Of a stretch of DNA of 64,000 nucleotides, positions 9,979 to 62,576 are shown one piece after another. Under the pieces are notes generated by a model. It did no database searches, was not told the DNA's origin, and saw nothing but the letters and a program-made list of their open reading frames with translations. The stretch is from Dactylorhiza incarnata (Eukaryota > Streptophyta > Magnoliopsida > Asparagales > Orchidaceae). A program made the translations under genes and the position numbers. Location: positions 8,667,001-8,731,000 of the forward strand of contig JAWHQI010000049.1 in NCBI GenBank assembly GCA_033032865.1. Reading direction: 5' to 3'. Position 1 is the first letter of the stretch; each line of letters begins with the position of its first letter.

Positions 9979-12398
9979 TGATGATTATGATTCGGATTTT
10001 TCTTTCTTTTTAATTTGGTTTGCGCAACCTTTATATGACGAGATTAGAATTAGGCTGGTGTTTTCAAAGAGTTTTGCATGTACTCCTACTTTGAGAAATT
10101 AACTGTTATCCTATCGAAAGATAGAAGTAACAGTCTTTTTCTGCTTTCGAAGTATTGACGTTTACACCTTGACTACAATGCCGAATTCAATTGATTTTTA
10201 AAATAGCAATGGAGAGTTTTGCACTAAATTGGTTTGAAAAGCTTTTGTTTAATTTTTTTATCCAAATTAATCATATAATAAAGGCAAGTATACCTTATCA
10301 TGAGTAATACAGGATATTTTGTTTTAGAAAATAACGAGGCCGTATATTTTCGTGGATCGTGTTGATTACACTACTTTGAGGAACGAACTATTATTTTATC
10401 GGAATAATATTTTGGTTAAGTTAACTAGAGTTCTAAATGATAAAATGCGTATAACTAGAGTTAAGAAAACGATAATAAGCGAATAACTAGAGTTCGGAAC
10501 GATGATAATAAATAGCGCCCGATGTCGAATTACCTTGAGGCGTAAATAGTCTTTTTTAGAAGTAAAAGAGATAACTTTTTAAAACATTAAAACGGCTTGG
10601 CCAGGGAGGTTCCATAATTATGAACGCTCCTCTCTCGAGGGTACGCCCACCTAAGATTATGAATATTCGACCGAACTCACATTCTATAATCGAATCTTCT
10701 TAATACTCGCTTTATGTTGTGAACCCCGCTATTGGGTTTTTACTTCCAATTCGGGAGACTTACCTCATCCTCTCTCGAGGGTAGAGCGCACTTCTCTTTA
10801 CCCTTGAGTGATCAGTCCGTACGCACGAGCCTCTCGGCTAACTAGTGTACGGAGATGGAAATGAAAACCACACATCGATCATGTTGCTCCACTCAACGTT
10901 ATTCTCGGGTAAACCTTAAGCGTTAATTATTTTAGAAAGAGATGTTTTATTTTTAGAAAAACTATTTTTGTGTCCCAATGCTCTTCGCCATCGTGCGCTA
11001 AAGGAAATTAGCCACTCATCGGAATGGAGACGACATTAATAGTTGGAAAAAACATGTTTAATTATGTAAGCGGATATAAGCGGATAAAAAGGGAAATAAA
11101 ATGATTTATATAAAAGCAGTAATAGTATCCGTCCCAACCGTCTTAAACAAGCGCTAAAAAGTTCTTAGCCTCTTATCCAGGATGGGGGTAGTATAGAAAT
11201 GAAATACTTATAAAGGTGCTGAAATAATATCTGTCCCAACCGACTTAAACAAGTGCTAAAGGAAATTAGCCTCTTATTCAAGATGGGGGTGGTATAAACA
11301 GTTATATAAGGACTGAAATAAAGCTAAGTTACAAAAAAGAAAAACATTATCTCATATACGCACGCACTCTACTTGTAATAAAAAGACTAAATCAAAAGAA
11401 AGCGTTTAAATGAAAGCGATAAATAAACCGTTAAATAAAGCGTTAAAGAAAGCGATAAACTATTTTTATGAAAGCAATAAACTAAGTTATGAAATCAATA
11501 AACTAAGTTATGAAAGCAATAAACTATCCTCATACACACACAGACACTAACATAAACAAAAAAGGAAGATGATCCAAATGAGAAAAAACAACTTTTTATT
11601 TCAAAAATAAGCATTACAACTAGACTAAAAAGGCAAAAATTAGAAACGAACATAAACTTAATTGCATAAAAAACTCACATCCACTCAAAAGAACTCAGAA
11701 AAACATTACAAACACTCAAAATTTGGATGAGATTTCCTTCAGCCGAGCCCCTCTATTTATAGGAAAAATTTCATTTTTACACGCCCTAGGTCACGGGCGT
11801 GACTTGGATGTCATGGCTGTGACTTAGGGAGTGACATTTGCTCGGCTGTATTCGCCGACTTCTCGAAGGTTCCACCGTCAAATAAGGCTGCACACGGGCG
11901 TGACTTGGTGTGTTACGGGCGTGACTTGTAGAGTCACGGGCGTGACTATGGGTGGCAGACGTCGGTAGCATGGGTGCGACTTTGGGTCATAACGCGCTGG
12001 CGGCTCACGGGCGTGACTTTGCTGGAACACGCGTGTGACTTGTAGAGTCACGGGCGTGACTTGGTCAACTGGAGTGAGCTAGAAAGGGGGTTCGTCGAAC
12101 GCAGAGCTTTAAATTTACATGCCCTTTGGTCACGGGCGTGACCGAGGGCGTGACTTGTCGTTCATCGAACTCAGCTCGCCTTTCGTCGACCTCAGCTCAA
12201 GATTCGTCGAACTTTGAACTTTAAATTTACACGCCCTTGGTCACGGCCGTGATCGAGGGCGTGACCTGTGAAAATTTTGTCAAAAATCTGAAAAAAAAAA
12301 GAAATAAAGCTAAGTTAGTAACAAAAATAATAAAACAGGCAATTATTCATTAATTTACATAGAAAATTTACAATATTAATTAAAACCATGCTAATAAT
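9979..12398 (-). repeat. 5' LTR of the gag-protease element (2.4 kb, right end cut)
   Basis: It begins TGATGATTATGATTC at 9979 and matches the 3' LTR copy from 11170 to about 12398. There the match stops after CATGCTAATA, and copia coding sequence begins soon after. About 40 bp of the LTR terminus is missing. CCTCTCTCGAGGGTA occurs twice (about 10625 and 10770). Confidence 0.85.
11780..12265. repeat. Array of GTCACGGGCGTGAC palindromes in the 5' LTR
   Basis: This is the counterpart of the array at 5466-5960, with the same motif order and several point differences (for example CATGGCTGTGAC for one copy). Several differences fall at CpG positions inside the motif. Confidence 0.85.
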
Positions 12399-12469
12399 TG
12401 GTTAACCATCTATTGGGGTAAGAACTCGCTCTTCTCTTCATTAATCTTATTCAAATATATGTTTTGTTT

Positions 12470-18172: not shown

Positions 18173-20252
18173 ACCTGATGTACATTAGAATCTCAATGGG
18201 TATTTATATATTTATAACAGTTAGAAATTGTTTTTGATGGAGCTCTACAACTATATGTATAACTAATGCAATTATAATGTTAAACCTGCTCATTACAGTT
18301 TTATTGTTTCAATTATGGTGTTATTGTTTCATTATGGTGTTATTATTCATAATGAAAGCAGGGTAAAGAACACAAACAAATAGTTTCAATGGATTTTAAA
18401 GGATTTATAATTGGACCCTCACGCTCGACGCCCTCTCACTTGGAAAAATGCATAGGAACATTAAGAGTCCACTTAAACTAAAAATGCAACAAATCTGTGG
18501 AAGCTTACTAAAACAATGACTATTGAAAAAAATGAAAATATATTTCTCTTGGATGTATTAAAAGATGATCAGCACAATGAGATTTTAAACGGATTACTAA
18601 CAACTATGAATCACTATTATTTACATGCTTCAAAATTATCAATTTAAACATTGTTATTCACAATTGTATAATCAAGTCCTTTAATTACATCATTATATCA
18701 AACCTTTTCCTGCAAAACAACTACACATTTTCCTTGTAGAAGAATGCAAAATTTGAAAATAGTTGAGCTTGGAGCCCAAAAAAAGGAACAAAGCATACTA
18801 AGAAAAAGAGTTATGATTTTTGACAATTACAAAGTCCAGGAGAAGTCGATTTTGTAAGAAATCTGAAATATGAGTTCTGAGATTTTCCTAATTACTAAGA
18901 AAATCACTAATAAGAAATCTGAAATAAGAAAAAACGATTTTGTAATTGTCAAGAAATGCTGAAAATTGATTTTGAAACTGAAAAATAGAAATGCAATTCA
19001 GTCCACGAAAATGTTGTAAAGTAATGTCATGAGACCCAAAAATGCAGTCCAAAGCTATTTACAGTCCAGGAAAAGTCGAAAGCTATTCAGTCCAGGAAAA
19101 CTGATATTCAGTCCAAAGCAATTCCGTCCAAATCTGAGAAAACCAGAGAAATGAAAATACAAATGCTATAAAATTCTGAGACCCAAAATGATTTACAAAA
19201 TCACAAACCAGGAGAACTGAAATTATAAATACTATAAAGTTCTGAAAATCATAAATCTGAAAATCGAACCTGAAGGAACGGTGGAGGAGGAGCTACTTTC
19301 CGGAATCTCTCTATCTGCAAATCAAACATGAAGGAACGGTGGAGGAGGAGCTACTTTCCGGAATCTCTCTATTGCGCAGGCAGTTGAAGGAAGTTGTTGA
19401 AGAGGAGGAGAAGCTCTTGAGGAGGGCCTGAAATAGTGAAACTTTAAAGAAATGTTGGACCCAAAATGATATACAAAATCACAAAGCTTTTTAACTGAAA
19501 TTATAAATGCTATAAAGATCTGAAAATCATAAATCTGAAAAATAACACCTCAAGGAACGGTGGAGGAGCTGCTTTTCGGAATCTCTCTATTACACAGGCA
19601 GCTGAAGGAAGTTGTTGAAGAGGAGGAGAAGCTCTTGAGGAGGGCCTGAAATAGGGAAACTTTAAAGAAATGCTGGACGGGAGGAAGAGAGGAGGTAACG
19701 CTGCTCTTGCGTAGGTATCTGAAGAAATAGGGAAGCTGAAAGGTTTGGGAAGAAGCCAACTGATGGAAGCTTGCAACAACGGTGGAGGAGGAGCTTGTCG
19801 GAAGCTTCAGAATCGTGATGGAGGAGGAGCTCTTGAGGTTAGGCACTATGGAGGCAAGGTGAGGCTTTGTCGAGGAGATATACATGATGCTGAATGTAGG
19901 GATCTATCGAGGGGAGGTAGAGTAATGATGCTTTCGGCGGGTGGCAGTCGAGGAAGAGAGGAGGCGATGGAAGCATGCAGGGGAGGAGAAACATGGTGTC
20001 CTTGCTTGCAGGAGGAGAGCAGGAAGCATAAATCTAAAAGGCTTTGGTTGTCGTGTTAAAAAGCAGAACCCAAGATGCTGTTGAGGCTTGTGTGATGTCC
20101 AAAAGACCAAAATACCCCAAAAAAGAGTTATGATTTTTGATTTAATGGGATTTTTGGGGGGTATTTTTGGTATGCAGAATGTTACACCAAGCTCTTTTGG
20201 TCTTCCCTTATATAATAAAGATATATATATATGTATATATATGCATATATAT
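18173..20252. other. Unclassified AT-rich DNA, probably old TE
   Basis: No recognisable protein domain is present. CAGTCCAGGA-type phrases recur around 18830-19120, and a tandem duplication lies at 19181-19700. The right end is an AT microsatellite (20216-20252) that forms the hAT target. Confidence 0.4.
19181..19700. repeat. Tandem duplication, period about 273 bp, with an inner 58-bp repeat
   Basis: The block from GACCCAAAATGATTTACAAA (about 19181) recurs from about 19454. Within it AAGGAACGGTGGAGGAGGAG occurs at 19273 and 19331 (58 bp apart), and a variant lies near 19552. The phrase GAAGTTGTTGAAGAGGAGGA is present in both long copies. Confidence 0.8.
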
Positions 20253-20694
20253 TAGTTTTGAACAGAAAGACTATCACGTCGGTCCAGGACCGGTCTTTTA
20301 AAAGACCTGTCTTTTGGCCGACCGGTCCCGTCTAAATAAGTCCCGGTCCAGGACCGATTTTTCTCCTCTGGAGGAGGACCGTCTGGGACCGGAGAACCGG
20401 TCCCGGACCGGTCTTTTTTATATATTTTTTTAAAATATAAAGTAAATTAATTTGATTTTATAAACTAAATATAAAACTCAAAATGAAATAAAATTTGATT
20501 TTTATTAAAAATTAAATAACATTACAAATTACAAAATTACTTCAATAAATTTTAGAAAAATTAAATAATAATATAACATTACAAATTTACAATTATTACA
20601 TTTAAATTTAAAAATAAAATAAAATACATTTTGTTATTTTATTCTGCGCTACCCAGATTTAAGTTATTCGGTTAGTCTTCAACTTCAGACTCAT

Positions 20695-22305
20695 TATCTT
20701 CAATTGACGAAACATGTTGCCTCCTCCTCAAAGCATTCAAATGATCCTTGTAGCAAATGCAAATCTCCAAAGGTTCTTCAGTCAAACGACTTCTTCGCTC
20801 GTTCAGAATTCTGCCACTAAAAAAAAAACGCAGACTTCGAAGCTACCGTACTAGCTTGGATTGTTAGTAAATCTTGGGACATTAAGACCAAAATAGGATG
20901 CACATTAGTTTAAAATTTTCACCTGTTTAAAATATCAAAATTTTCAATTTCGCTTGCGGTTATATAATCTTGAAATTGTGTTTGCTATATAAACCCAATT
21001 CGTTGAAATTACTTGATGTTCTTTGTTTTTCCTAGAAGCTCATTCTAAACGTTTATATTTTAAAATATCTTTTGGTTTAGGTTGGGTGGATTGTACACGA
21101 GGTCGCGATCCGTACATTTGATCATAATAATTATAAAGGCGAGTAAATTCAGAATTAATTTTGAAACACTAACATTAACAAAAGCACTGGAGGATTCGTC
21201 TAAATTTAAATTTCGATTAATTTCTTCTATAAAATTTTCAACGACGTCTACGCCCATTAAAGGGTTCAAAGTCGTGGCGCAAGAAAACATAGGAGGCATA
21301 TCTTTGTAATATTTAAAAAAAATCTCAATTATTAATATTAACGGACGCTACATTTCGTTCGTTTTGTAATTTTTAAACGTTTCATAAATTAATAAAATAT
21401 TTTCAATAACTAATGAGCTTGTAGGATAATAAACTTCAGATAAAATAGTTATTGCTCGATAAAAACTTTCTAATAAATTTACATAATCTTCGAGTACGGC
21501 CCAGTTCGACGTGCCTAAATCATGTGCTTCGACACAATTATAAAATTCTATTAGTAACACTTTTTGTGACAAAGCTCATTTTAACATTTTATACGTCGAG
21601 TTCCATCGTATAAGCATATCATACGATGGTCCTAAAAACTTTTTCTTTCGTAAATAACATTTTTTTTGAAATCTTGTTTTCTTCTTTTAGAACTATAAAT
21701 AACTCTTAACATGGTGCGTATTTTACTAGCGTAGTCATTCATAAATTGTAAACTATCTTGCACAATTAAATTTCAAACGTGACATGCACAACACGTATGA
21801 AAAAATATTTCATCTAACATTGGTTGCAAATCTGATAACAAATATTTGACGGTCATCCCATTATTTGAAGCGTTATCGAAAGAAATACACATAATTTTTT
21901 CTTTTATTTTAAATTCCCTAATAGTTTTAATAATAACCTGATAAATTTTTTTATCGGTGTGCAGATATTCAAATCATTCAAAACAAATTATATGTTTATT
22001 TAGTTCCCAACTATCTGGATCAACCCAGTGATAAGTAATGCAAATATAAGAAAGTTCATCAATTATACCGCTAGTCCAAACATCGCTCGTTAAGCTAACG
22101 CGACCATTGAATGTTTCAAAAAAGATTTTGTTAAATATTATTTAGATTGTAAGTAAGCCGCTAAAGCATTACGTCTAGTCGTAATGCGACTAAACTGGTG
22201 ATATTTAGGCTGGAGTACGTCGTGAATGTAAGACGTCATTTCTTCATCGTCGTAGTAGTTGAATGAGAGTCCTTTTTTGTTGACGTTCTCCATTTATCGC
22301 TCTCA
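20695..22305 (-). pseudogene. hAT transposase, catalytic core and dimerisation region
   Basis: Minus-strand fragments in order are FFETFNGRVSLTSDVWTSG (near 22090, the conserved D-V-W-T hAT block), YICITYHWVDPDSWELNKHI, CISFDNASNNG, NLIVQDSLQ, then KVLLIEFYNCVEAHDL with EDYVNLLESFYRAITILSE (21348-21572). MPPMFSCATTLNPLMGVDVV follows (21299-21060), and the C-terminal dimer region GRILNERRSRLTEEPLEICI lies near 20730-20830. Frameshifts and stops separate the pieces, so no active transposase can be made. It would bind its own ends and cut them. Confidence 0.75.
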
Positions 22306-22310
22306 TTGTC

Positions 22311-23124
22311 TGTACAACCCGTATTCGACGAGTAGACCAGCAGGTGCTCGGCGAGTCGGCAAGCAGCTTCCGGCGGGTTGACCCAATGCCGGTCCCACTC
22401 GCCCAGGTTAGGGGAAGCGAGTAAGCCCCACCCTGTCGTAGTCTCATATCGACGTAATCTCTTCTCGACGGCACATCCCCATCTCGACGACAAAGCTCCT
22501 TCTCACCCGGGGAGAGGGGAGTTTACCTGGGCTCACGCGAGTTTGCTTCAAGAGAACTTGCCCTTGGCGAGTAGGACTGGACTTAGTCGCCTCAGCCACA
22601 GTCTCAGGGAGGGAGCGAGACGAGTACGGGTCAACCCGACTCATTAGTCCTCCCTCACTATCCACAGACTAGCAGGGGTCGCGGTTAGTATATGCGAAAA
22701 GGCGTGAGGAGTTGTTCGCAGACCATTTTGGTCTGCATATAGTAATTTGGTTAAGGCGGAGGAAGCTATCCGCAGGCCTTTAGGACCATTTTACCCTTCG
22801 AAGAGTTTGTTTATAAATATGACCCATTAAGTCTCAGATCAACACGGATCCACCCCCCTTTGAGAGCCTGTGCTTTCTTCCTTGTGCTATCTGAGACAGG
22901 CTCAACCTCTAGTTTTTGGGAGGGGAAGTCGAGTAAGATTTCTAGGTTAGTGGCGGCACCTCCTCGCTGCAGCCTTTGGGTCCACTCCTAGGCATCCACT
23001 ACAATTCTGTGTGGGCAGATCCTCAGCTCAAAATACTTAGACCTAGGGATCAGACAAAGAGAGAAGTAACTCAAGCTACTCCCCAAGTCTCGAACATTGT
23101 TGGACCGGTATCCGAGTTCCAACA
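22311..23124 (+). repeat. Solo LTR (814 bp) inside the hAT, with TTGTC target duplication
   Basis: It starts TGTACAACCC at 22311 and ends GAGTTCCAACA at 23124. TTGTC flanks both sides (22306-22310 and 23125-23129). The interior phrase CACCTCCTCGCTGC and the TTCCAACA end resemble the Ty3 LTR ending at 55759, so it belongs to a related family. No internal sequence remains, as expected after LTR-LTR recombination. Confidence 0.8.
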
Positions 23125-23129
23125 TTGTC

Positions 23130-23406
23130 GAGCTTGGTCGTACGTCAAAATGTGCCCGGTCACCAAAATTTGAGCTTGGGTACACTCCGGGGCTTGTTTA
23201 AAAAAACAAGATTTCACATGTCGGACCAATGTTGTGTTGCTGTCAACGATCATTAGCTTCCCACAAAGTTTGCACTTCGCCTTTATTTCGCCATTGACCC
23301 GCACTTTATCAAAATTCTCCCATACTGCCGCTTTGTGGTGGTGCTCTATTATCTCATGAGCGACAGACGCGGTGGAGGACGTCGGCGTGGATGAGGAGGA
23401 AGCCAT
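23130..23406 (-). pseudogene. hAT transposase N-terminus with BED zinc finger
   Basis: It starts MASSSSTPTSS at 23406. Residues about 28-72 form a BED finger: VWENFDKV, then CKLCGKLM with the Cys pair, and TTLVRHVKSC with the His and Cys ligands. This domain binds transposon ends. The frame continues to the solo LTR junction and is separated from the catalytic part by that insertion. Confidence 0.8.
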
Positions 23407-23423
23407 TTGGAGAGAGTGTGAAA

Positions 23424-23515
23424 GCGTGAGTGTGTGTGTGTGAGAGAGAGAGTGTGTGAGAGAGTGCGTGAGAGAGAGTGGGTGAGAGAGAGTGATAGAG
23501 AGAGAGAGAGGGAGG
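23424..23515. repeat. GT/GA microsatellite in the hAT
   Basis: Runs of GTGTGTGT and GAGAGAGA alternate here, just upstream of the transposase start on the minus strand. Confidence 0.9.
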
Positions 23516-23697
23516 GGGTCAAATGATAGGATGGGGGGAAGGGTTATAATTTTTTTTAAGTGAAAGAGGGGGGGGGGGGGTAATTAATTCTTAAAAAAAA
23601 ACTTTAAAATAGCCTAGGCCCTAGGCTGCAGGCCGACAATAATAATTGCTGCCGGCCAGGGCCAGGTAATGACTCATTATAGAGCCGTTACCGCAAC

Positions 23698-23886
23698 AAC
23701 TCTTTAAAGAGCTGTTAGCTATTTTAATAACTTTTTTAAAGAGTTGTTTTAACAACTCTTTAAAGAGCTGTTTTAACAGCTGTTAAAAGCTCTTTTAATA
23801 GCTCTTTAAAGAGTAGCAACTGTTTAAAGAGCCCTTTTAACAACTCTTTAAAGAGCCGTTTTAACAGCTCTTTAAAGAGCCGTTAA
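23698..23886. repeat. Array of CTCTTTAAAGAG palindromes near the hAT end
   Basis: Seven or so units of GCTCTTTAAAGAGC and variants joined by GTTTTAACA follow one another. Each core CTCTTTAAAGAG is a perfect 12-bp palindrome, and the linkers pair too (AACAGCTGTT). It lies between the transposase and the terminal GGACCGGTC repeats. Confidence 0.9.
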
Positions 23887-24074
23887 CGGGACCGATCTTT
23901 GAACGGTCCTATCCCAGGACCGGTAAAAGACCGGTCCTGGTCCGGGACCGATCTTTGAGGGAAAAAGGAGGACTCCTAGGGACCCCTGGGATCAGTTCGG
24001 GACCGGACCGGTCCTAACTGGGACCGGTCCCTAGCCGGTCCTAAGGATAGGACCGTTTTTTTTGTGCACGCCTA

Positions 24075-24300
24075 TATATATATATGCATAGACACACACA
24101 CACACACATGAGTGACAGACACTGGGCTCCGGCCCTACGACCAAACACGACAACACTTTGATCCCTACACTATCTCGCTCATGCCGCACCCGACGCTCGC
24201 AAATTTTGTTAGCGATGGTTAATAATTTTATAAAAAATTATATTAAAAAATTGAAATATATATTAATAAAAATTTAAATTAATGTAAATAATTAAATTAT
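24075..24300. other. TA and CA microsatellites, then unassigned DNA left of the tandem units
   Basis: A TA run, a CA run near 24092-24108, then about 190 bp without recognisable content. It shares nothing with the sequence that precedes the matching point in the other units (26190-26283), so the array's left breakpoint falls at about 24301. Confidence 0.6.
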
Positions 24301-25525
24301 GATAATTATTTTTTGAAAACTTGGCTAAGATTTTTCCTTGCTATCTTGCTTCCATTTATTTCAGGTTTTTATAGTGTTTTGACTCGATATGCAGTACTTC
24401 CCATTTATTCATGTTAATGATGGTGTATGAAATCATGTTTTTTACCTTTTAGCTATCTGAATGAGCAAACCCTTGAAACTATATTCATATCTTTGGTGTT
24501 ATCGACTCTTGGACCTTGTTTTCTTATTTAGCTGAAGTTTTAATGGAGAAATGACTTCACACCTTGTGATTCAGTTCTAACCCCTTATTCTCATGGTAAA
24601 AATTTTCCACAAAATGGGATTATATGAGATAGGATAATATAATATTATTGATTCTTTATAGGTTCCCTTGGTCTAAGATTTAATTAGAAATGAACCATAG
24701 TTTTAATTTCTAGAAGATCAAGGTACTTAATTTTTTTTATAAAATTCTTGGGTGATTCTTTAAGTGAACAAGTATCTTCCTTTATCTTCTATTGAGTGGT
24801 TTGCCACCTCGATTCCCCCGTGGAAAGGCAGATTCGGTGGATCAACAAAGAAGGTGTTCAATCGATAAATTTTTTTGGCGGTGGAGGCCGGGTGATTTCC
24901 AAGGACTACTATTGACATTTTCTTTGGATAGGAATCAAATGCATTTTTATTTAATCTCTTTTCTTCAAAAAAAAACCATGTCTGCCCTAATGCATCGTAA
25001 CTACCACCCTAAATTAAAGGGAATTGCAAGATTATTGAAAGAAATTGTAGAAATCCAAAATACAAATATAAAAAAGTATTTATTTCTCCATTTTCTTAAC
25101 CTTTCAATATAAGGATTTGTACAACATACATAGGAAAAAGGGGAGGGCTTGAAATGAAATTCAAATATTTTATTAGCCTTCATTTCTTTATTCTGTTTGC
25201 TGTGCCTTTTGGCTCATTTGGAGCTGTGAGATATCAGCTAAATCTAACTTTTTTTTTTGAAAATAAGCTAAAACTATTTTTTGGGATTGCCTTCTGTACA
25301 TTGGTGTTGTAGCTAGTTGGTCATTTATTTTGTTGCCATTTTCTATTCCATATGCTGGATTCTTAGCTGTCGGGCGTAATCAGAGCTCTGACTATTGTCG
25401 AACAACCCTTTAATTAAAATGCGAGATACATAATATTGAGGTATGCTCGATACCCACTATTGAGGGCAGAATCCCTCAGAGTCGTCTCTCCTATGAGAGC
25501 CTAAACTAGACAATGCCAAGATAAT

Positions 25526-25724
25526 TGTTACAAGAAATAAATAAAAAGTCCATGTATTTAGGCCCATAAAATCTTTCTTCTCTAACTCCTCCCTTACTCT
25601 CATATCTTGAGTTTGTATTTAGCTCTCTCTCTTTCTGTAAAAGAAGACCCATTGTACAATATATGTGGAAGACATGATTATGAGAATAATAAAATATTGG
25701 GCCATTTTATTCTAAATTTCTACA
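25526..25724 (+). repeat. Copia LTR copy in tandem unit 1
   Basis: It starts TGTTACAAGAAATAAAT after ATAAT and ends AATTTCTACA, matching the 5' LTR at 29390-29587. Copia leader follows, and exon 1 starts 346 bp downstream of the LTR. It is a candidate promoter for that exon (inference). Confidence 0.85.
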
Positions 25725-26041
25725 TGTGCCAGGTTCGAATCTTTGTTTTTTTTGGTTGAGCTCTTGCTCCCGTTGCTGACCTGTGAACGCTCGCCCGCAC
25801 CTTTGCATTGGATCTTTGCCCCCATTCTATGGTTGAGCTCATAGTCGCTGACCTGTGATCGCTTGTTCGCACCTCTGGTCGAATCATTGCTCCCATTCTC
25901 CGGCGGCTGAGCTCTCTTCTCCCCTTGTTTCCCCTTCCCCCGCTGCTTCTTTATAGACCTTTTCGCCAGGACCAACCTTTGCGTCTATTCGCGTGATCTG
26001 CGTCTGCTCGCTCACCCCGCGAGTCCGCCGACACTATTCTC

Positions 26042-26059
26042 ATGGTGATCCAGTGTTGA
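26042..26059 (+). promoter_or_regulatory. Short upstream ORF before exon 1 (unit 2)
   Basis: ATG GTG ATC CAG TGT TGA encodes M-V-I-Q-C and stops 11 bases before the deacetylase ATG. It is conserved in the second copy. If transcribed it could lower translation of the main frame. Confidence 0.5.
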
Positions 26060-26070
26060 AGGCCCACAAA

Positions 26071-26107
26071 ATGCCGTCCAAGGACCGAGTTGCTTATTTC
26101 TACGATG
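26071..26107 (+). CDS. HDA9: Class I histone deacetylase, exon 1 (first copy)
   Basis: This 37-bp exon encodes M-P-S-K-D-R-V-A-Y-F-Y-D plus one base, followed by donor GT at 26108 (G|GTAATT). It matches the N-terminus of plant HDA9-type deacetylases (HDA19 types start differently), and its phase fits exon 2 at 62260. The enzyme removes acetyl groups from histone lysines in the nucleus. Only 36 bp upstream looks host-derived, and copia leader and LTR lie beyond. The start was chosen because ATG begins the family-conserved N-terminus. This copy is 36.2 kb from exon 2 and may be bypassed in favour of the second copy. Confidence 0.85.
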
Positions 26108-27515
26108 GTAATTTGTTTTGCCTTCTCCGATTAAGTTTTCTATGGTTCTATCGAATTAATGGCGGATAATCCTCAGGGGAAGGGTTTCGTTTGTGCTAAT
26201 GTTTACTAGTTAGTGCCCTACTCCGCTTCATGATTTTTTTCCCGTACGATTGCATTCGTCTTTGGTGTCGTTGGTATGGCCATGATAACTATTTTTTGAA
26301 AACTTGGTTAAGATTTTTTCCTTGCTATCTTGCTTCAATTTATTTCAGTATTTTATAGTGTTTTTGACTCATATGCACTAGTACTTTCCATTTATTCATG
26401 TTAATGATGGTGTATGAAACCCTGATTTTTACCTTTTAGCTATCAGAATGAGCAAACCCTTACAATTATATTCATATCTTTGGTGTTATCGACTATTGGA
26501 TCTTGTTTTCTTATTTAGTTGAAGTTTTAATGGAGAAATGACTTCTCACCTTGTGATTCTGTTCTAACCCCTTATTCTCATGGTAAAATTTTTCCACAAA
26601 ATGGGATTATATGGGATAGGATAGGATAATATTATTGATTCTTTACATCTTCCTTGGTCTAAGATTTAATTAGAAATGGACCATAGTTTTTATTTCTAGA
26701 AGATCAAGGTACTTGATTATTTTTTATAAAATTCTTGGGTGATTCTTTAAGTGAACAAGTATCTTCCTTTATCTTCTCTTGAGTGGTTTGCCACCTCGAT
26801 TCCCCTGTGGAAAAGCAGATTCGGTGGAACAACAAAGAAGGTGTTGAATCAATAATTTTTTTTGGCGGTGGAGGTCGGGTGATTTCCAAGGAATACTATT
26901 GGCATTTTCTTTGGAGAGGAATCAAATGCATTTTTATTTAATATCTTTTCTTCAAAAAAAAAAAACCATGTCTGCCCTAATGGATCATAACTACCACCCT
27001 AAATTAAAAGGAATTGCAAGATTATTGAAAGAAATTGTAGAAATCTAAAATACAAATAGAAAAAAGTATTTATTTCTCCATTTTCTTAACCTTTCAATAC
27101 AAGGATTTGTACAACATACATAGGAAATGGGGGAGGGCTTGAAATGAAATTCAAATATTTTATTAGCCTTCATTTCTTTATTCGGGTTGCTCTGCCTTTT
27201 GGCTCATTTGGAGCAGTGAGATATCAGCTAAATCTAACTTTTTTTTTGAAAATTAGCTAAAATTAATTTTTTGGGATTGCCTTCTGTACATTGGTGTTGT
27301 TGCTAGTTGGCCATTTATTTTGTTGCCATTTTCTATTCCCTATGCTGGATTCTTAGCTGTCGGGCGTAATTAGAGCTCTGACTATTGTCGAACAACCATT
27401 TAATTAAATTGCGAGATACAAAATATTGAGGTATGCTCGATACCCACTATTGAGGGCAGAATCCCTCAGAGTCGTCTCTCCTATGAGAGCCTAAACTAGA
27501 CAATGCCAAGATAAT

Positions 27516-27694
27516 TGTTACAAGAAATAAATAAAAAGTTCATGTATTTAGACCCATAAAATCTCTCTTCTCTAACTCCTGCCTTAGTCTCATATCTTGA
27601 GTTTTTATTTAGCTCTCTTTCTGTAAAAGAAGACCCACTGTACAATATATGTGAATATGATTATGAGAATAATAAAATATTGTACCATTTTATT
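27516..27694 (+). repeat. Copia LTR copy in tandem unit 2, 3' end deleted
   Basis: It starts TGTTACAAGAAATAAAT after ATAAT, but the match stops near 27694 where CCATTTTATT joins TGCTCCCATTC of the leader. About 100 bp covering the LTR end, primer site and early leader are missing. It ends about 255 bp before the second exon 1. Confidence 0.8.
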
Positions 27695-27919
27695 TGCTCC
27701 CATTCTCTGGTTGAGCTCATAGTCGCTGACCTGTGATCGCTTGTCCGCACCTCTGGTCGAATCTTTGCTTCCATTCTCTGGCGGCTGAGCTCTCTTCTCC
27801 CCTCGTTTCCCCTTCCCCCGCTGCTTCTTTATAGACCTCTTCGCAGGGACCAACCTTTGCGTCTGTTTGCGTGATCTGCGTCTGCTCGCGCACCCCGCGA
27901 GTCCGCCGGCACTATTCTC

Positions 27920-27937
27920 ATGGTGATCCAGTGTTGA
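27920..27937 (+). promoter_or_regulatory. Short upstream ORF before exon 1 (unit 3)
   Basis: This is the same five-codon frame (M-V-I-Q-C) as at 26042, ending 11 bases before the ATG at 27949. Confidence 0.5.
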
Positions 27938-27948
27938 AGGCCTACAAA

Positions 27949-27985
27949 ATGCCGTCCAAGGACCGAGTTGCTTATTTCTACGACG
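27949..27985 (+). CDS. HDA9: Class I histone deacetylase, exon 1 (second copy)
   Basis: It encodes the same protein start as the copy at 26071, with one silent change (GAC for GAT in the last full codon), and has the same donor (G|GTAATT at 27986). It is the copy nearest to exon 2, giving a 34.3-kb first intron. Both copies keep the frame, the donor and the upstream five-codon ORF. The upstream LTR in this copy is 3'-truncated. Either copy could start a transcript reaching 62260; the sequence cannot say which is used. Confidence 0.85.
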
Positions 27986-29389
27986 GTAATTTGTTTTGCC
28001 TTCTCCGATTAAGTTTTTCTATGGTTCTATCGAATTAATGGCGGATAATCCTCAGGGGAAGGGTTTCGTTTGTGCTAATGTTTACTAGTTAGTGCCCTAC
28101 TCTGCTTCATGATTTTTTCCCGTACGATTGCATTCGTCTTTGGTGCCGTTGGTATGGCCATGATAACTATTTTTTGAAAACTTGGCTAAGATTTTTTCCT
28201 TGCTATCTTCCTTCAATTTATTTCAGTTTTTTATAGTGTTTTTGACTCATATGCACTAGTACTTTCCATTTATTCATGTTAATGATGGTGTATGAAACCC
28301 TGTTTTTTACCTTTTAGCTATCAGAATGAGCAAACCCTTAAAACTATATTCATATCTTTGGTGTTATGGACTCTTGGATCTTGTTTTCTTATTTAGCTGA
28401 AGTTTTAATGGAGAAATGACTTCTCACCTTGTGATTCGGTTCTAACCCCTTATTCTCATGGTAAAATTTTTCCACAAAATGGGATTATATGGGATAGGAT
28501 AGGATAATATTATTGATTCTTTACATCTTCCCTTGGTCTAAGATTTAATTAGAAATGAACCATAGTTTTTATTTCTAGAAGATCAAGGTACTTGATTTTT
28601 TTTTATAAAATTCTTGGGTGATTCTTTAAGTGAACAAATATCTTCCTTTATCTTCTCTTGAGTGGTTTGCCACCTCGATTCCCCTGTGGAAAGGCAGATT
28701 TGGTGGATCAACAAAGAAGGTGTTCATTCAATAATTTCCTTTGGCGGTGGAGGCTGGGTGATTTCCAATGACTACTATTGACATTTTCTTTGGAGAGGAA
28801 TCAAATGCATTTTTATTTAATCTCTTTTCTTCAAAAAAAAAACCATGTCTGCCCTAATGCTTAATAACTACCACCCTAAATTAAAGGGAATTGCAAGATT
28901 ATTGAAAGAAATTGTAGAAATCCAAAATACAAATAGAAAAAGTATTTATTTCTCCATTTTCTTAACCTTTCAATACAAAGATTTGTACAACATACATAGG
29001 AAAAGGGGGAGGGCTTGAAATGAAATTCAAATATTTTATTAACCTTCATTTCTTTATTCGGTTTGATGTGCCTTTTGGCTCATTTGAAGCCGTGCGATAT
29101 CAGCTAAATCTAACTTTTTTTTGAAATTAGCTAAAACTAATTTTTTGGGATTGCCTTCTGTACATTGGTGTTGTTGCTAGTTGGCCATTTATTTTGTTGC
29201 CCTTTTCTATTCCCTATGCTGGATTCTTAGCAGTCGGGCGTAATCAGAGCCCCGACTATTGTCGAACAACCCTTTAATTAAAATGCGAGATACAAAATAT
29301 CGAGGTATGCTCGATACCCACTATTGAGGGCAGAATCCCTCAGAGTCGTCTCTCGTATGAGAGCCTAAACTAGACAATGCCAAGATAAT

Positions 29390-29587
29390 TGTTACAAGAA
29401 ATAAATAAAAATCCATGTATTTAGGCTCCTAAAGTCTCTCTTCTCTAACTCCTCCTTTAGTCCCATATCTTGAGTTTGTATTTAGCTCTCTCTCTTTCTG
29501 TAAAAGGAGACCCATTGTACAATGTATGTGGAGGACATGATTATGAGAATAATAAAATATTGGCCCATTTTATTCTCAATTTCTACA
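29390..29587 (+). repeat. 5' LTR of the copia element (198 bp)
   Basis: It runs from TGTTACAAG to TTTCTACA, with the primer site immediately after. It matches 33576-33762 and the copies at 25526 and 27516. Confidence 0.88.
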
Positions 29588-29600
29588 TGGTATCAGGGCC
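29588..29600 (+). promoter_or_regulatory. tRNA-Met primer binding site of the copia element
   Basis: TGGTATCAGGGCC directly follows the LTR and is one base from the usual TGGTATCAGAGC-type site. Confidence 0.8.
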
Positions 29601-30574
29601 ATGTTCGAATCTTCATTTTTTTGGTTGAGCTCTTGCTCCCATCGCTGACCTGTGACCGCTCGCCCGCACCTTTGCTTCAGATCTTTGCTCCCATTCTCTG
29701 GTTGAGCTCATTGTCGCTGATCTGTGATCGCTTGTCCGCACCTCTGGTCGAATCTTTGCTCCCATTCTCTGGTTGAGCTCTCTTCTCCCCTCGTTTCCCC
29801 TTCCCCCGCTGCCTCTTTATAGACCTCTTCGCCGGGACCCACCTTTGCGTCTGTTCGCGTGTTCCGCATCTGCTCACGCACCCTGCGAGTCCGCCGGCAC
29901 CCTATCCGCGCTGCTCCTGCTCGCGCGATCTGCGTCTGCTAGCGCGCCCTGCGAGTCCTCCGGCTCCCTATCTGCGCTGCCCTGCGACCTTCGGGATTGC
30001 ATTCTGTGACCGTTCTTCTTCAGCGACTGCTCCTGGTGCTCGCAGTGAACGCCTTCGTTCCTTCTTCGTGCCTGCTGAGTCCCGCGCCCCATGCGTTCTC
30101 ATCATTTATGTTCGCTGCTCGCGCGCATGCTTCTGTGCGATACCCGACTGAGACCGCAAAGAGACAGCCGTGACCGCAACTTGCGGACCGTGCAAAGTCT
30201 TTTGTTCATCGAGCTCGCAGCTCTCGATTCCTTGCCTAGCTCCTCTTCTGCCGAGCTCCTGTCCCGAGCTCCCTCCTGCCGAGCCCCTGCTTGCTGAGTT
30301 AGTTGCAACCGCCTGGTCCCGTGCTGCTCGCCCTGTGGTCAGTTCCTGTTGCCAACCAGTCATGAGAACGCATGCGTTTTCTTCTAGCCCGCTCAGCGGT
30401 CTGTCTTCTGTTGCAGCTCTCCCCCCTCCAATGGTTTTTGCGGCCGTCGATGCTCTGACTGCCCCTGTTCCCGCGCTGAAATCGACATTCTGCGAGATGA
30501 ACTCCGACACCTGCGGAAGCTGATTGCTTGCAACTCTGGTTTCTTGGCCTCCTCCCATGCCGGTCTCTCTACCT

Positions 30575-33500
30575 TTCCTCTTGTTTCCTCCTGGATTGTG
30601 GACTCGGAATCCACCAATCACGTCTCTCCACAACAACCCTCTCAGTACTTGGACTCTCCGTGTCCAAAGTTCAATACAGTGGCAAATGACGACCACTCCC
30701 GTTACTGGCTCTAGCGATATGTTGCTCACCCCTTCTCTACCTCTCCGCTCCGTTCTTCATGTCCTGGCTTCAATTCAATTTGCTTTCTATCACTCACTTA
30801 ACTCATGATCATGATTTCCTAATTACCTTCTCTTCCTCTTCTTTTGTTGTGTAGGATCGGCAGACGCGAAATGTCATTGGTACAGGGTGGCTTTGCAATG
30901 GGCTGATTGGCATTAGCGTATCGGTCATGCTCCTCTTCCCATTCTCCAGAAAGCTCTCCCCGATGTATCTTTTTCCCTTTTTAATTGTGAATTATGTATC
31001 TATGGGAAACAACATATCTGTTTTCCGTCTTCATTGTACTCGGAGCACTGCTCTTTTTTATTTAGTATATTCCGATATCTGAGGTCCTTGCAAAACTGCT
31101 AGTATATTTGGTTATCGCTACTTTGTTACATTTATTGATGATTATTCACACATGACTTGGTTATATATGATGCGTGATTGCTCTGAGCTTCTGTCCATTT
31201 TCCGCTCCTTTATTGTAGAAATCCACACGCAATTTACCCGTGTTATTAAAATTCTTCGCACTGATAATGCGCGCGAATACACTGAGCATGCTTTCCAGGA
31301 ATTCTGCACCTTGTTGTGCATCATCCACCAAACCTCCTGTGCGCACACGTCACAAAAAAATGACGTTGCTGAGTGGAAGAACCTCCACCTTCTCGAAGTT
31401 GCACGATCTCTCTTATTCCAGATGCAGGTCCCCACCACCTATTGGTATTTCACTATCTCCACTGCTTGTTATCTTATCAACCGCATGCCCTCGTCCGTCC
31501 TCCAATTTGAGACCCCCTCCTCTCTCCTATTTCCTTAATGCCCTCACTTCCCCCTGACCCCATGGGTCTTTGGCTGCGTATGTTACGTTCACCATCTGGA
31601 TCCTCTGTTGACAAGGTGTCCCCTTGTGCTACGCGCTACATGTTCGTTGGGTATTCGCGCACCCAGAAGGGATATGTCTGTTACTTTCCCTCCACTCGGA
31701 AGCTGATCACGTCTGCTGATGTCACTTTTCTGTAAAATCAGCCTTTTCCATCACTCCGTCACCACGTCAATGCCACCTCCTGATTTCCCACGTCCTCTTG
31801 TTCTTACCAATTCTCCTTTACCACCTTTACTACCGACACCACCACCTGCCACAGCTCCTCTTCGCGTCTACTCTATTTGCTATCCTCGATCCGGTGCCCT
31901 GCGACAACCCCCATTTACTACTGATACTCCGCGAACTACTGATTCGATGACACCCTCCACCGCGCATCCGCTTTCAAATTATGTTTCCCTGCATCGTCTC
32001 TCCTCTGATTTGCGCAGATTTGGGACCTCTCTATCGTCTATTTCCACTTCCTCTTCTGTGCTGGAAGCCCTTCAACATTCAAGGTGGCATGTAACAATGG
32101 ATGAGGAAATGACTGCACTTTGGGCCAACCACACTTGGGACCTTGTTCCTCTTCCTCCTAATCAACATACTGTGAGCTGCAATTGACTATTCACTATGAA
32201 GCATCATCCGAATGAGACCGTTGATCGCCTTAAGGCCCGTCTTGTTGCTAGAGGTTTTACTCAACAACACGAACTTGTTTATGAAGAGAACTTTCTCTGG
32301 TGACAAACTCAACACCGTCCGTGTCTTACTCTCACTTGCCGTTCATCGCCATTGGCCGCTCCATCAACTTGACATTAAAAATGCCTTCTTTCACGACGAT
32401 CTTGTGGAGACTGTGTACATGCAACAACCTCTTGGTTATACAACCACGGGGGAGTCCCTTGTCTGTCATCTGAAAAAATCTCTCTATGACCTCAAGCAGT
32501 CTCCACGGGCATGGTTTGAGAAGTTTAGTCAGGTGGTTCGTGAGTTTGGCTCACCCGAAGCTCGACAGATTTCTTCCTTTCATTCGAGAACGTTCATCTA
32601 ATACAATGATTCTTCTAGTCTACGTTGATGACATCCTTGGTACTGGTGATGATCTTCTCGGCATCACCCAAATCAACATCTTGCCTCTCATTTTCAAACT
32701 AAGGATTTGGGACGACTCCGCTGCTTATTGGGAATTGAGGTAGCCTGATGGTCTTGTCTTGTCTCAGCGGATGTATTTTCTCGGTCTACTTCATGATGCA
32801 GGCTATTCTGGATGTAAGCCTGTGGATACGCTTATGGATGTAAATCATTAGCTCCGCGCTCATGGCTTAGACACTGATCAACTTCTCCCTAATCCGGAGT
32901 ATTATCGCCGCCTTGTTGGCAAGCTAATTTATTTTAATGTCACACAACCTGACATTTCCTTTGCGGTCGGTGTGGTCAGTCGCTTCATGCATACCCCTCG
33001 GGTCTCTCATCTTTAGGCCTTTGAGCGTATTCTTCGATACTTGAAGAATGCTCCAGGACAAGGGCTGGTATACAAGCCATCTACTTCTCTGTCTCCCATT
33101 GCATATTGTGATGTTGATTACGCTGGGTCCCTGGACGATCGCCAGTCCACGAGCGACTACTACTCATATTTTGACGGGAATTTGGTTACTTGGGGAAGCA
33201 AGAAGCAGACTGTGGTTGCTCGGTCTTCAGCTGAAGCAGAGCATCGCTCCATGGATGCCGCCGTCTCAGAGCTTACATGGCAAGAAAGTCTCCTCACTGA
33301 TATAGGTGTCAAACTTCCATCACGAGTTGTTCTCTTTTGTGATAGTCAAGCTGCTATTCACCTTGCCGAGAACCCTGAGCTTCATAAGCGTACACAACAT
33401 ATTGAAGTTGATTGCCATTTTGTCCGGGAAAAGGTTCAATTTTGGAAACTGATTCTACGACATGTGCAGGCTTCCGATCAAATCTCCGATATTCTCAGTA

Positions 33501-33575
33501 AGGCCTTATCTCGCCCACTATATCAACAATTCCTCTCCAAGCTTGGCGCCTATGACTTGTACGCTCCAACTTGCG
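30575..33575 (+). pseudogene. Decayed copia pol (protease, integrase, RT, RNase H)
   Basis: The protease site is marked by SWIVDSESTNHVS (about 30590). Integrase (31090-31535) has VIKILRTDNAREYT and DVAEWKNLHLLEVARSLLF. RT (32205-32750) has LHQLDIKNAFFHDDLVE, CHLKKSLYDLKQSPRAWFE and catalytic YVDDILGTGDD (32621). RNase H (33041-33560) has CDVDYAGSLDDRQSTSDY and VARSSAEAEHRS. Many stops and frameshifts separate the blocks. A normal copia gag is not recognisable in the 1 kb between primer site and protease, so gag may be deleted. Once a complete retrotransposon, it is now immobile unless helped in trans. Confidence 0.85.
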
Positions 33576-33762
33576 GGTCACAAGAAATAAATAAAGCGCC
33601 CATGTATTTAGGCCCATAAAGCCTCTCTTCTCTAGCTCCTCCTTTAGTCCCACATCTTGAGTTTGTATTTAGCTCTCTCTCTGAGGCCTATTGTATAATG
33701 TATGTGGAGGACATGATTACGAGAATAATAAATATTGACCCCTTTTATTATCAATTTCTACA
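33576..33762 (+). repeat. 3' LTR of the copia element
   Basis: It matches the 5' LTR from ACAAGAAATAAATAAA to ATTTCTACA. The first base pair is changed (GG for TG). The ATAAT target copy follows. Confidence 0.85.
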
Positions 33763-34020
33763 ATAATGAAAACAACTCACCTTCTCTCCCTTATATAGGC
33801 CAGAGTGGGCATACATTAAATCACGAAAATGCCACTAGAGCTATATAGACTCATATGGTGATGCATGGCTGGACCGGAGAGTTGTCTTTGTATCAACACA
33901 ACCCTTCTGTAAATAGAACTTTCCCTCAAGGTCGAGGTCCGTAGTGGTCATCAATGAGCGTCAGAGAATCCAAGTCAGCTAAGTCAGGATCGTCGTCCGA
34001 TTGGATGATTGGAGGAGGCA

Positions 34021-35880: not shown

Positions 35881-36248
35881 CAATATCGTTGGGTCTCATT
35901 TAGTAGCATGTGAGAGTTTACCCATTATTTCCCCGTGATATAGCACCGTCCTGCGTCAGGGATGGTCTAGGATGCGCGGGGAAGACGAGACCGACGACGA
36001 TTAGGCTGTCCGAGCTCGCAGAGAGCGCGTGCCAGATCAGCAACACGTACTGCTGGCATTGTGCGGAGGGCGAGGCGAGACGAGCACAAGCGAGAGAGGA
36101 TGCACGGGCTTGAAGTTGCAGCTTCAATCGACGGAAGAAGAGGAGAGCGAGCGACGATGGCTTCTGTGAATAGTGGAAGAGATCCAAATATGGTTCACGA
36201 GGGAACCCTAAGTGAGCAGAAGGTCAGACCAGTTGATTTTTCCAGCTA

Positions 36249-36518
36249 TCGTCAAACAAACCTTTAATAACAATGAGAGATACAAAATATCGACGTATGC
36301 TCGATACCCACTCTTGTGGGCAAAATCCCTCTACAAGTCGTCTCTCCTGTGAGGTCCTAAACAAGACAGTGTTCGAAGATAATGAAAATAACTCACCTTT
36401 ACTCCCTTATATAGCGGGAGTAAGCATACATTAAATGACGAAAATGCCACTATGGCTATATACTCATAGTGGGACGCGTGGTTGGCCCGGGGAATCATCT
36501 TCGTATTACGTAATAACA
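36249..36518 (-). repeat. 5' LTR of the non-autonomous element
   Basis: This 270-bp copy runs from TCGTCAAACAAACC to TACGTAATAACA, with the usual TG start changed to TC. It is the partner of the split LTR at 29260-33898. TGACTAT follows at 36519. Confidence 0.7.
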
Positions 36519-40103: not shown

Positions 40104-41820
40104 CGAAAGATAAGGGTTGTTATCTAATCACTTAGGGGGGGGGGTGAATAGGTGTTTTAAGATTTTTATGCTTTCTTTTTAAGTATCTACTTTTATGCAT
40201 AACAAAACAACAAAGAAGCACAATCCACAACACAGCACACCAAGATGTATAGTGGTTCCCCAATTATGGGTATATCCACTTTCCCCTTCACCTATCTAGC
40301 AGAGTGCTAGCTTAGGCCAACTCCAAATTTCTCAGATCAAATGATCTTACACTCAGAGTCCTTGACTCCTACAACTCAGGAACAACAGTCCCCTACCTCA
40401 GACCTTTAACACAAGTTCCTACAACTCAGATCTCAAAATACAAGATCCTACACTCAAGCCAAAAGCCGCCCTACCTCAATCACTCCAACAAGAGATCTAC
40501 ACTCAGATCTTTTCAAAGATCCTACCTCAGATCACAATGATCCTATAACTCAGATTTCCACTGGAATCCTACAACAAACTCAGATCCAAAAAGGATCCTA
40601 CAATTACAAAGAGTTTATAAATATTCTGACTCAACGAACAAAACTTTAGTCTTCAATAGAAGCACTGTGAAAGCTTCTTCTTCCTTAATCAGTCCTTGAA
40701 TGTATCAACTTGAAATGGATTTGGCTGGATCAAGAAGACTTACTCAAGAGAGAAATGTTCTTCAATAAAAGAATAGTTCTGTTGAGCCTTGAAAGAAATC
40801 TCTTAGGATTGCAATGACTGTAGACTGGACGGAATTCTATAGCTTGATTACTGCAAAATGCTTGCATAAGAAATCTTTCTTAGTGTATGCACGCGTGCCT
40901 TCTTTGTAAATGTATGTATATGCATCTCTTGTTCATTTTTCATATCCCTTTATATAGAAGACTGGATCGGCAGTGGCCTTGCTTCTAAAAAGGAATGCTT
41001 CAACGACTAGAAATTTTCCCTAAGGAAAATCCTTTAAATGATAGCAATCTGAAATCAATGAGTATAATCTATTTCCTCTTAAAACACCTTGATTATTGCA
41101 GCAGATAGCGGAATTCAAATCAATTTGAATGACTGCGCAATTTGTGGCTTTATTTCAGCATAGGGCTGTTAGAACACGCTTCGGGCCGATAAAATAGTTT
41201 ATGCAGTCGATATAATCTTTCAGCACTTGTAGTCGATAAAATCCTTTAACACTTATAGTCATGATGTAGTCGACAATCTCCATCTTATAAGCATAACCTG
41301 ATGCAATCAATACTTGAGCAATCAATCCTGGAAAGATACTTCTGTCACAGTCTGGATGATGCAATCGATAAATCAGGTAGTCTTCCAGCCGATGCAGTCG
41401 ATAAATTACTTAACTGTCCAGTCGATGCAATCGACAAATGACTTAGCTTCCAGTCGATATTTTCTTTAGTCATTCAGTTGATACAGTCGATATTTTCTTT
41501 AGTCATTCAGTTGATACAGTCGACATTGAACTTATACTAAACTTTGCTTCTCCCTTTAATTTCTTTTATCCATGCTGCTTTTCCTCATGATAATGACATG
41601 TCTAATATAAGATTAGATCATAGGTCAACATGAGTTTTGTACCTTGATGGATTACAAAGGCAAAACCCTGTTTTGGTGTCCATAAGCTTAACATTATATT
41701 AGCCAAACATTTCTGTTGTACCTGTCACATCAAAACTCATACAAGCATCAACTACAAGATGCTTATTGCCATCTTAAGGCCTTCTTCAAATCAGGAATCT
41801 TGTGGACAATATTTCTAACA
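40104..41820 (-). repeat. 3' LTR of the internally deleted element
   Basis: It starts CGAAAGATAAGGG (TG changed to CG) and ends ATTTCTAACA, next to a minus-strand purine tract (AAATAGGGAAAAT). It contains runs of CCTACAACTCAGAT-type repeats (40340-40600) and CAGTCGATA repeats (41150-41530). Confidence 0.75.
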
Positions 41821-42049
41821 ATTTTCCCTATTTGAAGAAGTCAGAACCTCATATGAGAATAGACATATAAACATAAAAATTATAACAAGATAGAAATACT
41901 TAGATAGCAAGAGCATTCCAGATTATATATATAAATATGTTCAGACATTATAGAGTTCAACTATAAGATAAATAAGTGCAATTCCAACAAAAGTTTAAAG
42001 CAAGCTCTAAGGTTTTCAGCTCTCTCCATCAGCAAAAAGGATCTTTTCA

Positions 42050-43284
42050 AAGAGTTTAAAGATCCGACTCGGATCTTTTCAAAGATCCTACAACTCAGAT
42101 TCCAAAAAGGATCCTACTGGAATCCTACAACAAACTCAGATCCAAAAAGGATCCTACAATTACAAAGAGTTTATAGATATTCTGACTCAACCAACAAAAC
42201 TTCAGTCTTCAATAGAAGCACTGTGAAAGCTTCTTCTTCCTTAATCAGTCTTTGAATGTATCAGCTTGAAATGGATTTGGCTGGATCAAGAAGACTTAAT
42301 CAAGAGAGAAATGTTCTTCAATAAAAGAATAGGTCTGTTGAGCCTTGGAAGAAATCTCTCAGGATTGCAGTGACTGTAGACTGGATAGAATTCTATAGCT
42401 TGATCACTGCAAAATGCTTGCACAAGAAATCTTTCTTAGTGTATGAACGTGTCTTTTTTGTAAATGTATGTATATGTATCTCTTATTCATTTTTCATATC
42501 CCTTTATATCGAAGACTGGATCGGCAGGGGCCTTGCTTCTAAAAAAGAATGTTTCAACGACTAGAAATTTTCCCCAAGGAAAGTCCTTTAAATGATAGCA
42601 ATCTGAAATCAATGAGTATAATCCATTTCCTCTTAAAACACCTTGATTATTGCAGCAGAAAGAGGAATTCAAATTAGTTTGAATGACTGCGCAATTTGTG
42701 GTTTGATTTTAGCATAGGGTCGTTAGAACACGCTTCAGGCCGATAAAATAGTTTATGCAGTTGATATAATCTTTCAGCACTTGTAGTCGATAAAATCCTT
42801 CAGTACTTATAGTCATGATGCAGTCAGCAATCTCCATCTTAAAGCATAACCTGATGCAATCCATACTTGAGCAATCAATCCTGGAAAGATACTTCTGTCA
42901 TAGTCTGGATGATGCAGTCGATAAATCAGGTAGTCTTCCAGTCAATGCAGTCGATATTTTCCTTAGTCATTCAGTCGATACAATCGACATTTGACTTAAA
43001 CTAAACTTTGCTTCTCCCTTTAATTTCTTTTATCCATGCTGCTTTTCCTCATGATAATGACATGTCTAATATATGATTAGATCATATGTCAACATGAGTT
43101 TTGCACCTTGAGGGATTACAAGGGCAAAACCCTTTTTGGGTGACCATAAGCCTAACATTATATTAGCCAAGCATTTCTGTTGTACCTGTCACATCAAAAC
43201 TCATACAAACATCAAATACAAGATATTTATTGTCATCCTAAGGCCTTCTTCAAATCAGGAATCTTGTGGACAATATTCCCAACA
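42050..43284 (-). repeat. 5' LTR of the internally deleted element, inner end missing
   Basis: It is homologous to about 40510-41820, at an offset of about 1.5 kb, and ends CCCAACA at 43284. The part equivalent to 40104-40500 is absent. Confidence 0.8.
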
Positions 43285-43289
43285 ATTCA

Positions 43290-46190: not shown

Positions 46191-46359
46191 AATGGTGGCA
46201 ACACAAATCTTAATTAATTCAATTTAGAATTAATAAGAATAAATTCTTGAATGCATAATAAATTCAGGAATAAATTCCTATATATCCTCACATGTGGATG
46301 CCAGCCCATACATGATTATTCGTACACGTGTGCGTTTACTGTCCACAGAGGAGGATTAG

Positions 46360-62259: not shown

Positions 62260-62372
62260 GGGATGTTGGTAATGTTTATTTTGGACCAAACCATCCAATG
62301 AAACCACATCGTCTCTGTATGACACATAATCTTGTTCTCTCATATGAACTTCACAAGAAGATGGAAATATAT
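62260..62372 (+). CDS. HDA9: Class I histone deacetylase, exon 2
   Basis: This 113-bp exon completes the split Gly codon and encodes [28 protein letters not shown] and ELHKKMEIY, the start of the deacetylase fold in HDA9-type proteins. Acceptor AG is at 62258-62259 and donor GTTAGT at 62373. The frame is intact, and phase agrees with both exon-1 copies and with exon 3. The conservation shows the gene was under selection until recently or still is (inference). Confidence 0.93.
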
Positions 62373-62458: not shown

Positions 62459-62576
62459 AGGCCACACAAGGCATATCCAGTCGAGCTTGCCCAGTTCCAT
62501 TCAGCAGATTATGTGGATTTCTTGCATCGAATTACTCCAGACACACAGCATTTGTTTGCGAATGAATTGACACAAT
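62459..62576 (+). CDS. HDA9: Class I histone deacetylase, exon 3
   Basis: This 118-bp exon encodes RPHKAYPVELAQFHSADYV and DFLHRITPDTQHLFANELTQ plus one base, continuing the HDA9-type N-terminal domain. Donor GTATGA is at 62577, phase 1. The family continues with Tyr-Asn, fitting the split T codon. The catalytic His pair and metal-binding Asp/His residues lie in later exons outside the window, so activity cannot be judged here. Confidence 0.93.

Follow-up and report, generated by a model that had tools for sequence, protein, structure and literature searches.

Two copies of the first exon of an HDA9-type histone deacetylase gene lie directly behind a copia long terminal repeat (LTR) and leader in the orchid Dactylorhiza incarnata. 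The question raised by this locus is whether a conserved chromatin regulator may start here from a retrotransposon promoter, as the original prediction proposed, or whether the arrangement came about in another way. The window, i.e. the whole stretch of DNA that was analysed, comprises 64,000 nucleotides of contig JAWHQI010000049.1 (assembly GCA_033032865.1, positions 8,667,001 to 8,731,000 of the forward strand), and all coordinates refer to its first nucleotide.

The HDA9-type gene and its first exons

The following features of the gene were annotated, with the two complete first exons termed 1b and 1c:

26035..26070 (+): probable host 5' UTR of exon 1b, not in the full-length copia, with a 5-codon uORF from 26042
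26071..26107 (+): HDA9 exon 1b, 37 nt, MPSKDRVAYFYD followed by G, donor GT at 26108
27913..27948 (+): probable host 5' UTR of exon 1c, differing from 26035-26070 at 1 of 36 sites
27949..27985 (+): HDA9 exon 1c, 37 nt, donor GT at 27986, one synonymous change compared to exon 1b
62260..62372 (+): HDA9 exon 2, identified by protein matches, AG acceptor before 62260
62459..62576 (+): HDA9 exon 3, GT/AG borders, in frame

Translation with exact borders gave 89 open codons for exons 1 to 3 from either exon 1 copy. Among the best 120 of 267 protein matches, this product was closest to histone deacetylase 9 of Dendrobium catenatum (96%), followed by histone deacetylase of Vanilla (94%) and by Cinnamomum (92%), and among the best 60 of 61 matches it also hit the HDAC2 and RPD3 chains of solved structures. 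The unpadded 89 residues returned short HDAC pieces from other organisms (best 120 of 296). With plant HDA9 as the best match for the protein of exons 1 to 3, the gene is assigned to the HDA9 class of RPD3/HDA1 histone deacetylases. In a paper on the HDACs of Dendrobium officinale, 'DoHDA9' is by its own account a homologue of HDA6 (PMC7747690).

The 13 residues of exon 1b are identical to those of Dendrobium HDA9 (P0001), and exon 1c encodes the same protein, the sole difference being synonymous. GT/AG borders and reading frame are intact for exons 1b, 1c, 2 and 3, and exons 1 to 3 carry no stops, frameshifts or splice-site damage. Two intact first exons starting at 26071 and 27949, with ATG, frame and GT donors preserved and with splice borders from 26107 or 27985 to the AG acceptor just before 62260, had been predicted, and all of this was confirmed. 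Compared to Dendrobium, 4 of the 89 residues differ, and all four states are known from the 11 homologues read. N36 is shared with P0003 and P0005, S65 with most of the 11, D70 with P0002 and T88 with P0018. The motif 'YEL' (E42) was considered as a sign of decay and rejected, as it is present in 6 of the 11 homologues, including Dendrobium and Vanilla. An origin of exon 1 as a retrotransposed piece was likewise rejected, as both copies are followed by unspliced intron. At 37 nt, a selection test on exon 1 has no power. Five short exon 4 motifs were searched for in the three forward frames of 62577-64000, up to the window end, and were not found.

Besides the copies at 26035 and 27913, no third copy of the 36 bp in front of the ATG was present within the window. 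These 36 bp do not belong to the full-length copia, whose sequence diverges from the aligned units at 29901, and from this absence they are probably of host origin. As predicted, they are the only non-copia sequence before each first exon, preceded by copia leader and then by a sense LTR.

The copia element in the first intron

29390..33762 (+, sense): full-length decayed copia, 5' LTR 29390-29587, 3' LTR about 33576-33762
33763..33767 (+): right copy of the target site duplication (TSD) ATAAT, left copy at 29385-29389
36246..36506 (+): paralogous repeat without copia, empty site around ATAAT (36379-36383)

The element was identified as a copia LTR retrotransposon by its paired LTRs, TSD, primer-binding site (PBS) and domain order, with rve, SH3_retrovirus and RVT_2 detected and rve ahead of RVT_2 (integrase before reverse transcriptase). 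The PBS-like sequence TGGTATCAGGGCC at 29588 is presumably the primer-binding site. The 3' LTR starts with GG and not TG. The forward frames contain 39, 49 and 60 stops, which marks the element as decayed, and the two LTRs differ at 17 of 186 sites (distance 0.099; 85% identical with gaps counted). The paralogous repeat matches both flanks of the element, 29256-29389 at 83% and 33763-33893 at 81%. Because ATAAT stands on both sides and a paralogous empty site exists, copia must have entered intron 1 inside an older repeat.

Structure of the tandem array

Three head-to-tail units were delimited: unit A (24299-26034), unit B (26035-27912) and unit C, which starts at 27913 and runs into the full-length copia. 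Outside the first exons and 5' UTRs given above, they consist of:

24299..25525 (+): unit A intron 1 sequence, 94% to 26282-27515, 5'-truncated, exon 1 missing
25526..25724 (+): copia LTR of unit A, in front of exon 1b, TGTTACAAG...TTTCTACA, 12 of 198 sites different from the copia 5' LTR
25725..26034 (+): unit A copia leader, aligned with 29588-29900, primer-binding site damaged, 7-base deletion
26108..27515 (+): unit B intron 1 sequence, 95.7% to 27986-29389
27516..27694 (+): unit B copia LTR, 3' end and start of the leader deleted (112-column gap)
27695..27912 (+): unit B copia leader, 92.7% to 29684-29900
27986..29389 (+): unit C intron 1 sequence, ending in the copia target site ATAAT (29385-29389)

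The duplicated unit is about 1.9 kb long. It begins 36 bp ahead of the ATG, reaches into the copia leader (up to 29900) and contains exon 1, 1.4 kb of intron, the LTR and the leader. Identity between units is 93-95% over 1.4-1.9 kb, a similarity that is not attributable to chance. The same junction, copia leader joined to TATTCTCATGG, was found twice, at 26034/26035 and 27912/27913. Head-to-tail units sharing one junction identify the array as a tandem duplication, and since this junction is repeated, the exon 1 copies are not independent events. Two independent LTR captures were rejected on the same ground, the junction being identical at both unit boundaries. The 5'-truncated third unit (24299-26034), the full copia with its TSD and the single repeated junction are additions to what had been predicted for this locus.

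The insertion of copia is placed before the duplication, because the junction lies inside the copia leader and an LTR follows ATAAT at the same intron position in all three units. The distances fit this order only loosely (0.099 for the LTR pair, 0.064 to 0.097 for the unit LTRs, 0.043 to 0.057 for the introns) and by themselves are no proof of it, so the order rests on structure.

Between intron copies, the differences of 0.043 to 0.057 come together with private indels, which are 1 to 112 bases long. Units B and C differ from each other at 4 of 246 sites over their first 247 bp, compared to 51 of 1229 in the remaining intron (Fisher p 0.064); this lower divergence on the exon 1 side is not significant and may hint at constraint or at recent conversion. 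The middle unit tends to be C-like on its left and A-like on its right. For this change point from BC-like to AB-like sites, the permutation p was 0.010 with all sites and 0.028 with cleaned sites, and for the intron against the transposable element (TE) part of the unit it was 0.027 and 0.22, respectively; cleaning removed sites next to gaps or other changes, and the hybrid signal weakens with it. Unequal crossing-over as the source of the third unit, with a hybrid middle unit, is thus only weakly suggested.

Flanking sequence and intron content

Unit A breaks off at 24298/24299, the equivalent of 26282 in unit B, 174 bp into the intron. Its front 247 bp, on the exon 1 side, were found neither in 1-24298 nor elsewhere in the window (blastn, E up to 0.001), and within the window no native promoter and no original exon 1 were found. 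The native exon 1 would therefore lie more than 24 kb further left, or may have been lost. Gypsy, copia and hAT-like sequence is present in the left 24 kb, with two gag ORFs in 1-24298:

4873-6083 / 11170-12399: gypsy LTR pair, left of unit A
near 12.6-13.3 kb: frame-shifted copia reverse transcriptase, left of unit A
20252..24074 (-): hAT-like element in decay, located left of unit A, with a TIR-like TAGGCGTGCAC at its right end and a guessed left end

The hAT dimerisation domain of the last element scored just below the Pfam cut-off. We take TAGGCGTGCAC, which was read by eye, to be its terminal inverted repeat (TIR); at the left end no second TIR was found within 3 mismatches, the total of 2 matches being no more than chance. 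Dense palindromic repeats TTTAAAGAG / TTTTAACAGC occupy 23697-23886, inside this element near its right end. An unassigned stretch (24075-24298) separates the hAT-like element from unit A; it is AT-rich on the right and may hide the cause of the cut in unit A. A partial local duplication (pieces of about 140 bp, 86-90% identical) was observed at 19180-19678.

The distance to exon 2 is 36,152 bp from exon 1b and 34,274 bp from exon 1c. A six-frame Pfam scan of 33764-62300 (E 0.01) detected no domains other than those of TEs on the forward strand and nothing on the reverse strand, with a limited sensitivity that leaves room for a host gene in the intron, as its long translations missed a gypsy gag (45129-45986) that a single ORF revealed. 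This minus-strand gag ORF is flanked by direct repeats (44731-45068 and 46934-47296, 87%), and 44731-47296 is possibly a small LTR element. At 40501-43287 the intron contains a tandem-like duplication (40501-41445 and 42067-42998, 91%; 41451-41823 and 42915-43287, 91%).

Promoter and polyadenylation signals

LTR A ends 346 bp before the ATG at 26071 and LTR B 254 bp before the ATG at 27949, in agreement with the 255-350 bp predicted; the LTR coordinates 25526-25724 and 27516-27694 were also correct. An exact-motif scan of both LTRs found no TATAAA or TATATA, only ATAAAA and AATAAA. A canonical TATA is not obligatory. The TATA-like TTTATAGA is located in both leaders, starting 121 bp before each ATG; it also occurs in copia itself and is hence no new feature. 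Unit A retains a damaged PBS and unit B none, and the 3' end of LTR B is missing.

Transcripts from the early part of LTR A would contain six upstream ATGs (25663, 25674, 25680, 25724, 25829 and 26042), and those from the early part of LTR B four (27649, 27657, 27663 and 27920), every one in a frame that closes ahead of the main ATG. A start just past TTTATAGA meets only the last of them (26042 or 27920), so the upstream ATGs weigh against a start in the LTR and not against one in the leader.

About 1.4 kb behind each first exon lies another sense LTR with AATAAA-like motifs (AATAAA/AATAAT at 27526-27671 and 29400-29551). Termination there is as plausible as initiation, because the copia LTR in intron 1 of Arabidopsis RPP7 is a known premature poly(A) site.

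Origin and possible effect of the array

The origin of the array is clear, namely tandem duplication ending in an intronic copia. As the sequence shows, a sense copia inserted into intron 1 of the HDA9-type gene, after which the unit of about 1.9 kb described above was duplicated in tandem to give three units, so that the LTR before each exon 1 is the copied intronic LTR of the preceding unit. As the unit ends inside the intronic copia, every copy except the first must lack the native promoter and have an LTR in front. The absence of a native promoter beside both copies, as stated in the original prediction, was upheld; the step from this absence to a retrotransposon promoter was not, since the absence is expected of internal tandem copies and is no argument for a promoter switch. 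The original exon 1 and native promoter would have belonged before unit A, and are either beyond the left end of the window through later insertions or lost. Exons 1b and 1c would for the most part be passive internal copies, or at best weak alternative first exons encoding one protein, and an LTR behind them may be as likely to terminate a transcript early as one in front is to initiate it. We regard this reading, with its largely passive exon copies, as probable, and the LTRs at exon 1 are more likely a passive by-product than a promoter. Against it, the native exon 1 was not seen in the window; its deletion would leave 1b and 1c as the sole first exons here.

One alternative is a promoter takeover, in which the gene has lost its native first exon and promoter, and the copia LTRs, or a cryptic promoter in the leader, drive transcription into exon 1b or 1c with splicing to exon 2. 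It would account for the missing native promoter and for the intact state of both first exons, their donors, exon 2 and exon 3 (89 open codons, 96% to Dendrobium HDA9), and the TATA-like motif kept in both leaders would offer a start with one upstream ATG. The LTRs themselves, however, have neither TATAAA nor TATATA, past their first 100 bp or so they place six upstream ATGs before 1b and four before 1c, the PBS and the 3' end of LTR B are damaged or lost as described, and TTTATAGA was already part of a copia that is itself decayed; we consider a takeover unlikely. LTR-driven expression of the HDA9-type gene as such is possible, with a weaker case than it had seemed to have. An array of the form LTR-exon1-LTR-exon1-LTR, where every first exon is preceded by one LTR (possible start) and followed 1.4 kb on by another (possible poly(A) end), could further be read as a transposon-built control switch that makes histone deacetylase output depend on the chromatin state of the copia family, which we think very unlikely.

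The locus could instead be a dead or dying, TE-filled and unexpressed HDA9 duplicate, with an intact paralogue elsewhere doing the work. The length of the first intron (at least 34 kb), its many TE pieces, the truncated first unit and the lack of a native promoter in the window would suit such a copy, but exons 1 to 3 are undamaged, all four residues that set the product apart from Dendrobium are known from homologues, and the introns of orchids are reported to be typically long (PMC8633000, PMC8408244), which makes a dead copy rather doubtful. A false tandem expansion of one locus in the assembly is extremely improbable, as the 4-6% divergence of the intron copies and their private indels (1-112 bases) are above the expected sequencing error, and an identical internal junction stands at both boundaries.

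An intronic LTR can thus come to lie upstream of a first exon without inserting there. When a tandem duplication ends inside the element, LTR and leader are placed before every later exon copy, and the end result alone would be taken for promoter capture. If the copies are transcribed, silencing of copia would be linked to histone deacetylase dose.

Comparison with known systems

Tandem segmental duplications with a TE breakpoint have head-to-tail units, one repeated junction and about equal unit lengths. The HDA9 array shares all of these features and differs in that its unit comprises a single first exon and a single intronic LTR. No matching report of a plant tandem duplication of a first exon with an LTR promoter was found in the literature searched; a similar combination of subjects turned up in one mammalian review.

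In Arabidopsis RPP7, the 5' LTR of the first-intron copia COPIA-R7 is described as a proximal poly(A) site that yields LTR-terminated transcripts containing exon 1 (PMC7529245). A sense copia LTR with AATAAA-like motifs likewise lies about 1.4 kb behind each exon 1 of the HDA9-type gene. Unlike at RPP7, the stretch from exon 1 to the LTR is tandemly repeated, so that LTRs also precede exon 1.

LTRs in front of regulatory genes are already known from orchids: the HORT1 solo LTR in the PeMYB11 promoter of Phalaenopsis is reported to raise promoter activity twofold (PMC11330024). The HDA9-type gene resembles PeMYB11 in this position of the LTR, but its LTR arrived by tandem duplication from the intron and is at most a candidate promoter. 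Against this background, the exon 1 array is to be seen as ordinary genome evolution together with one testable regulatory idea.
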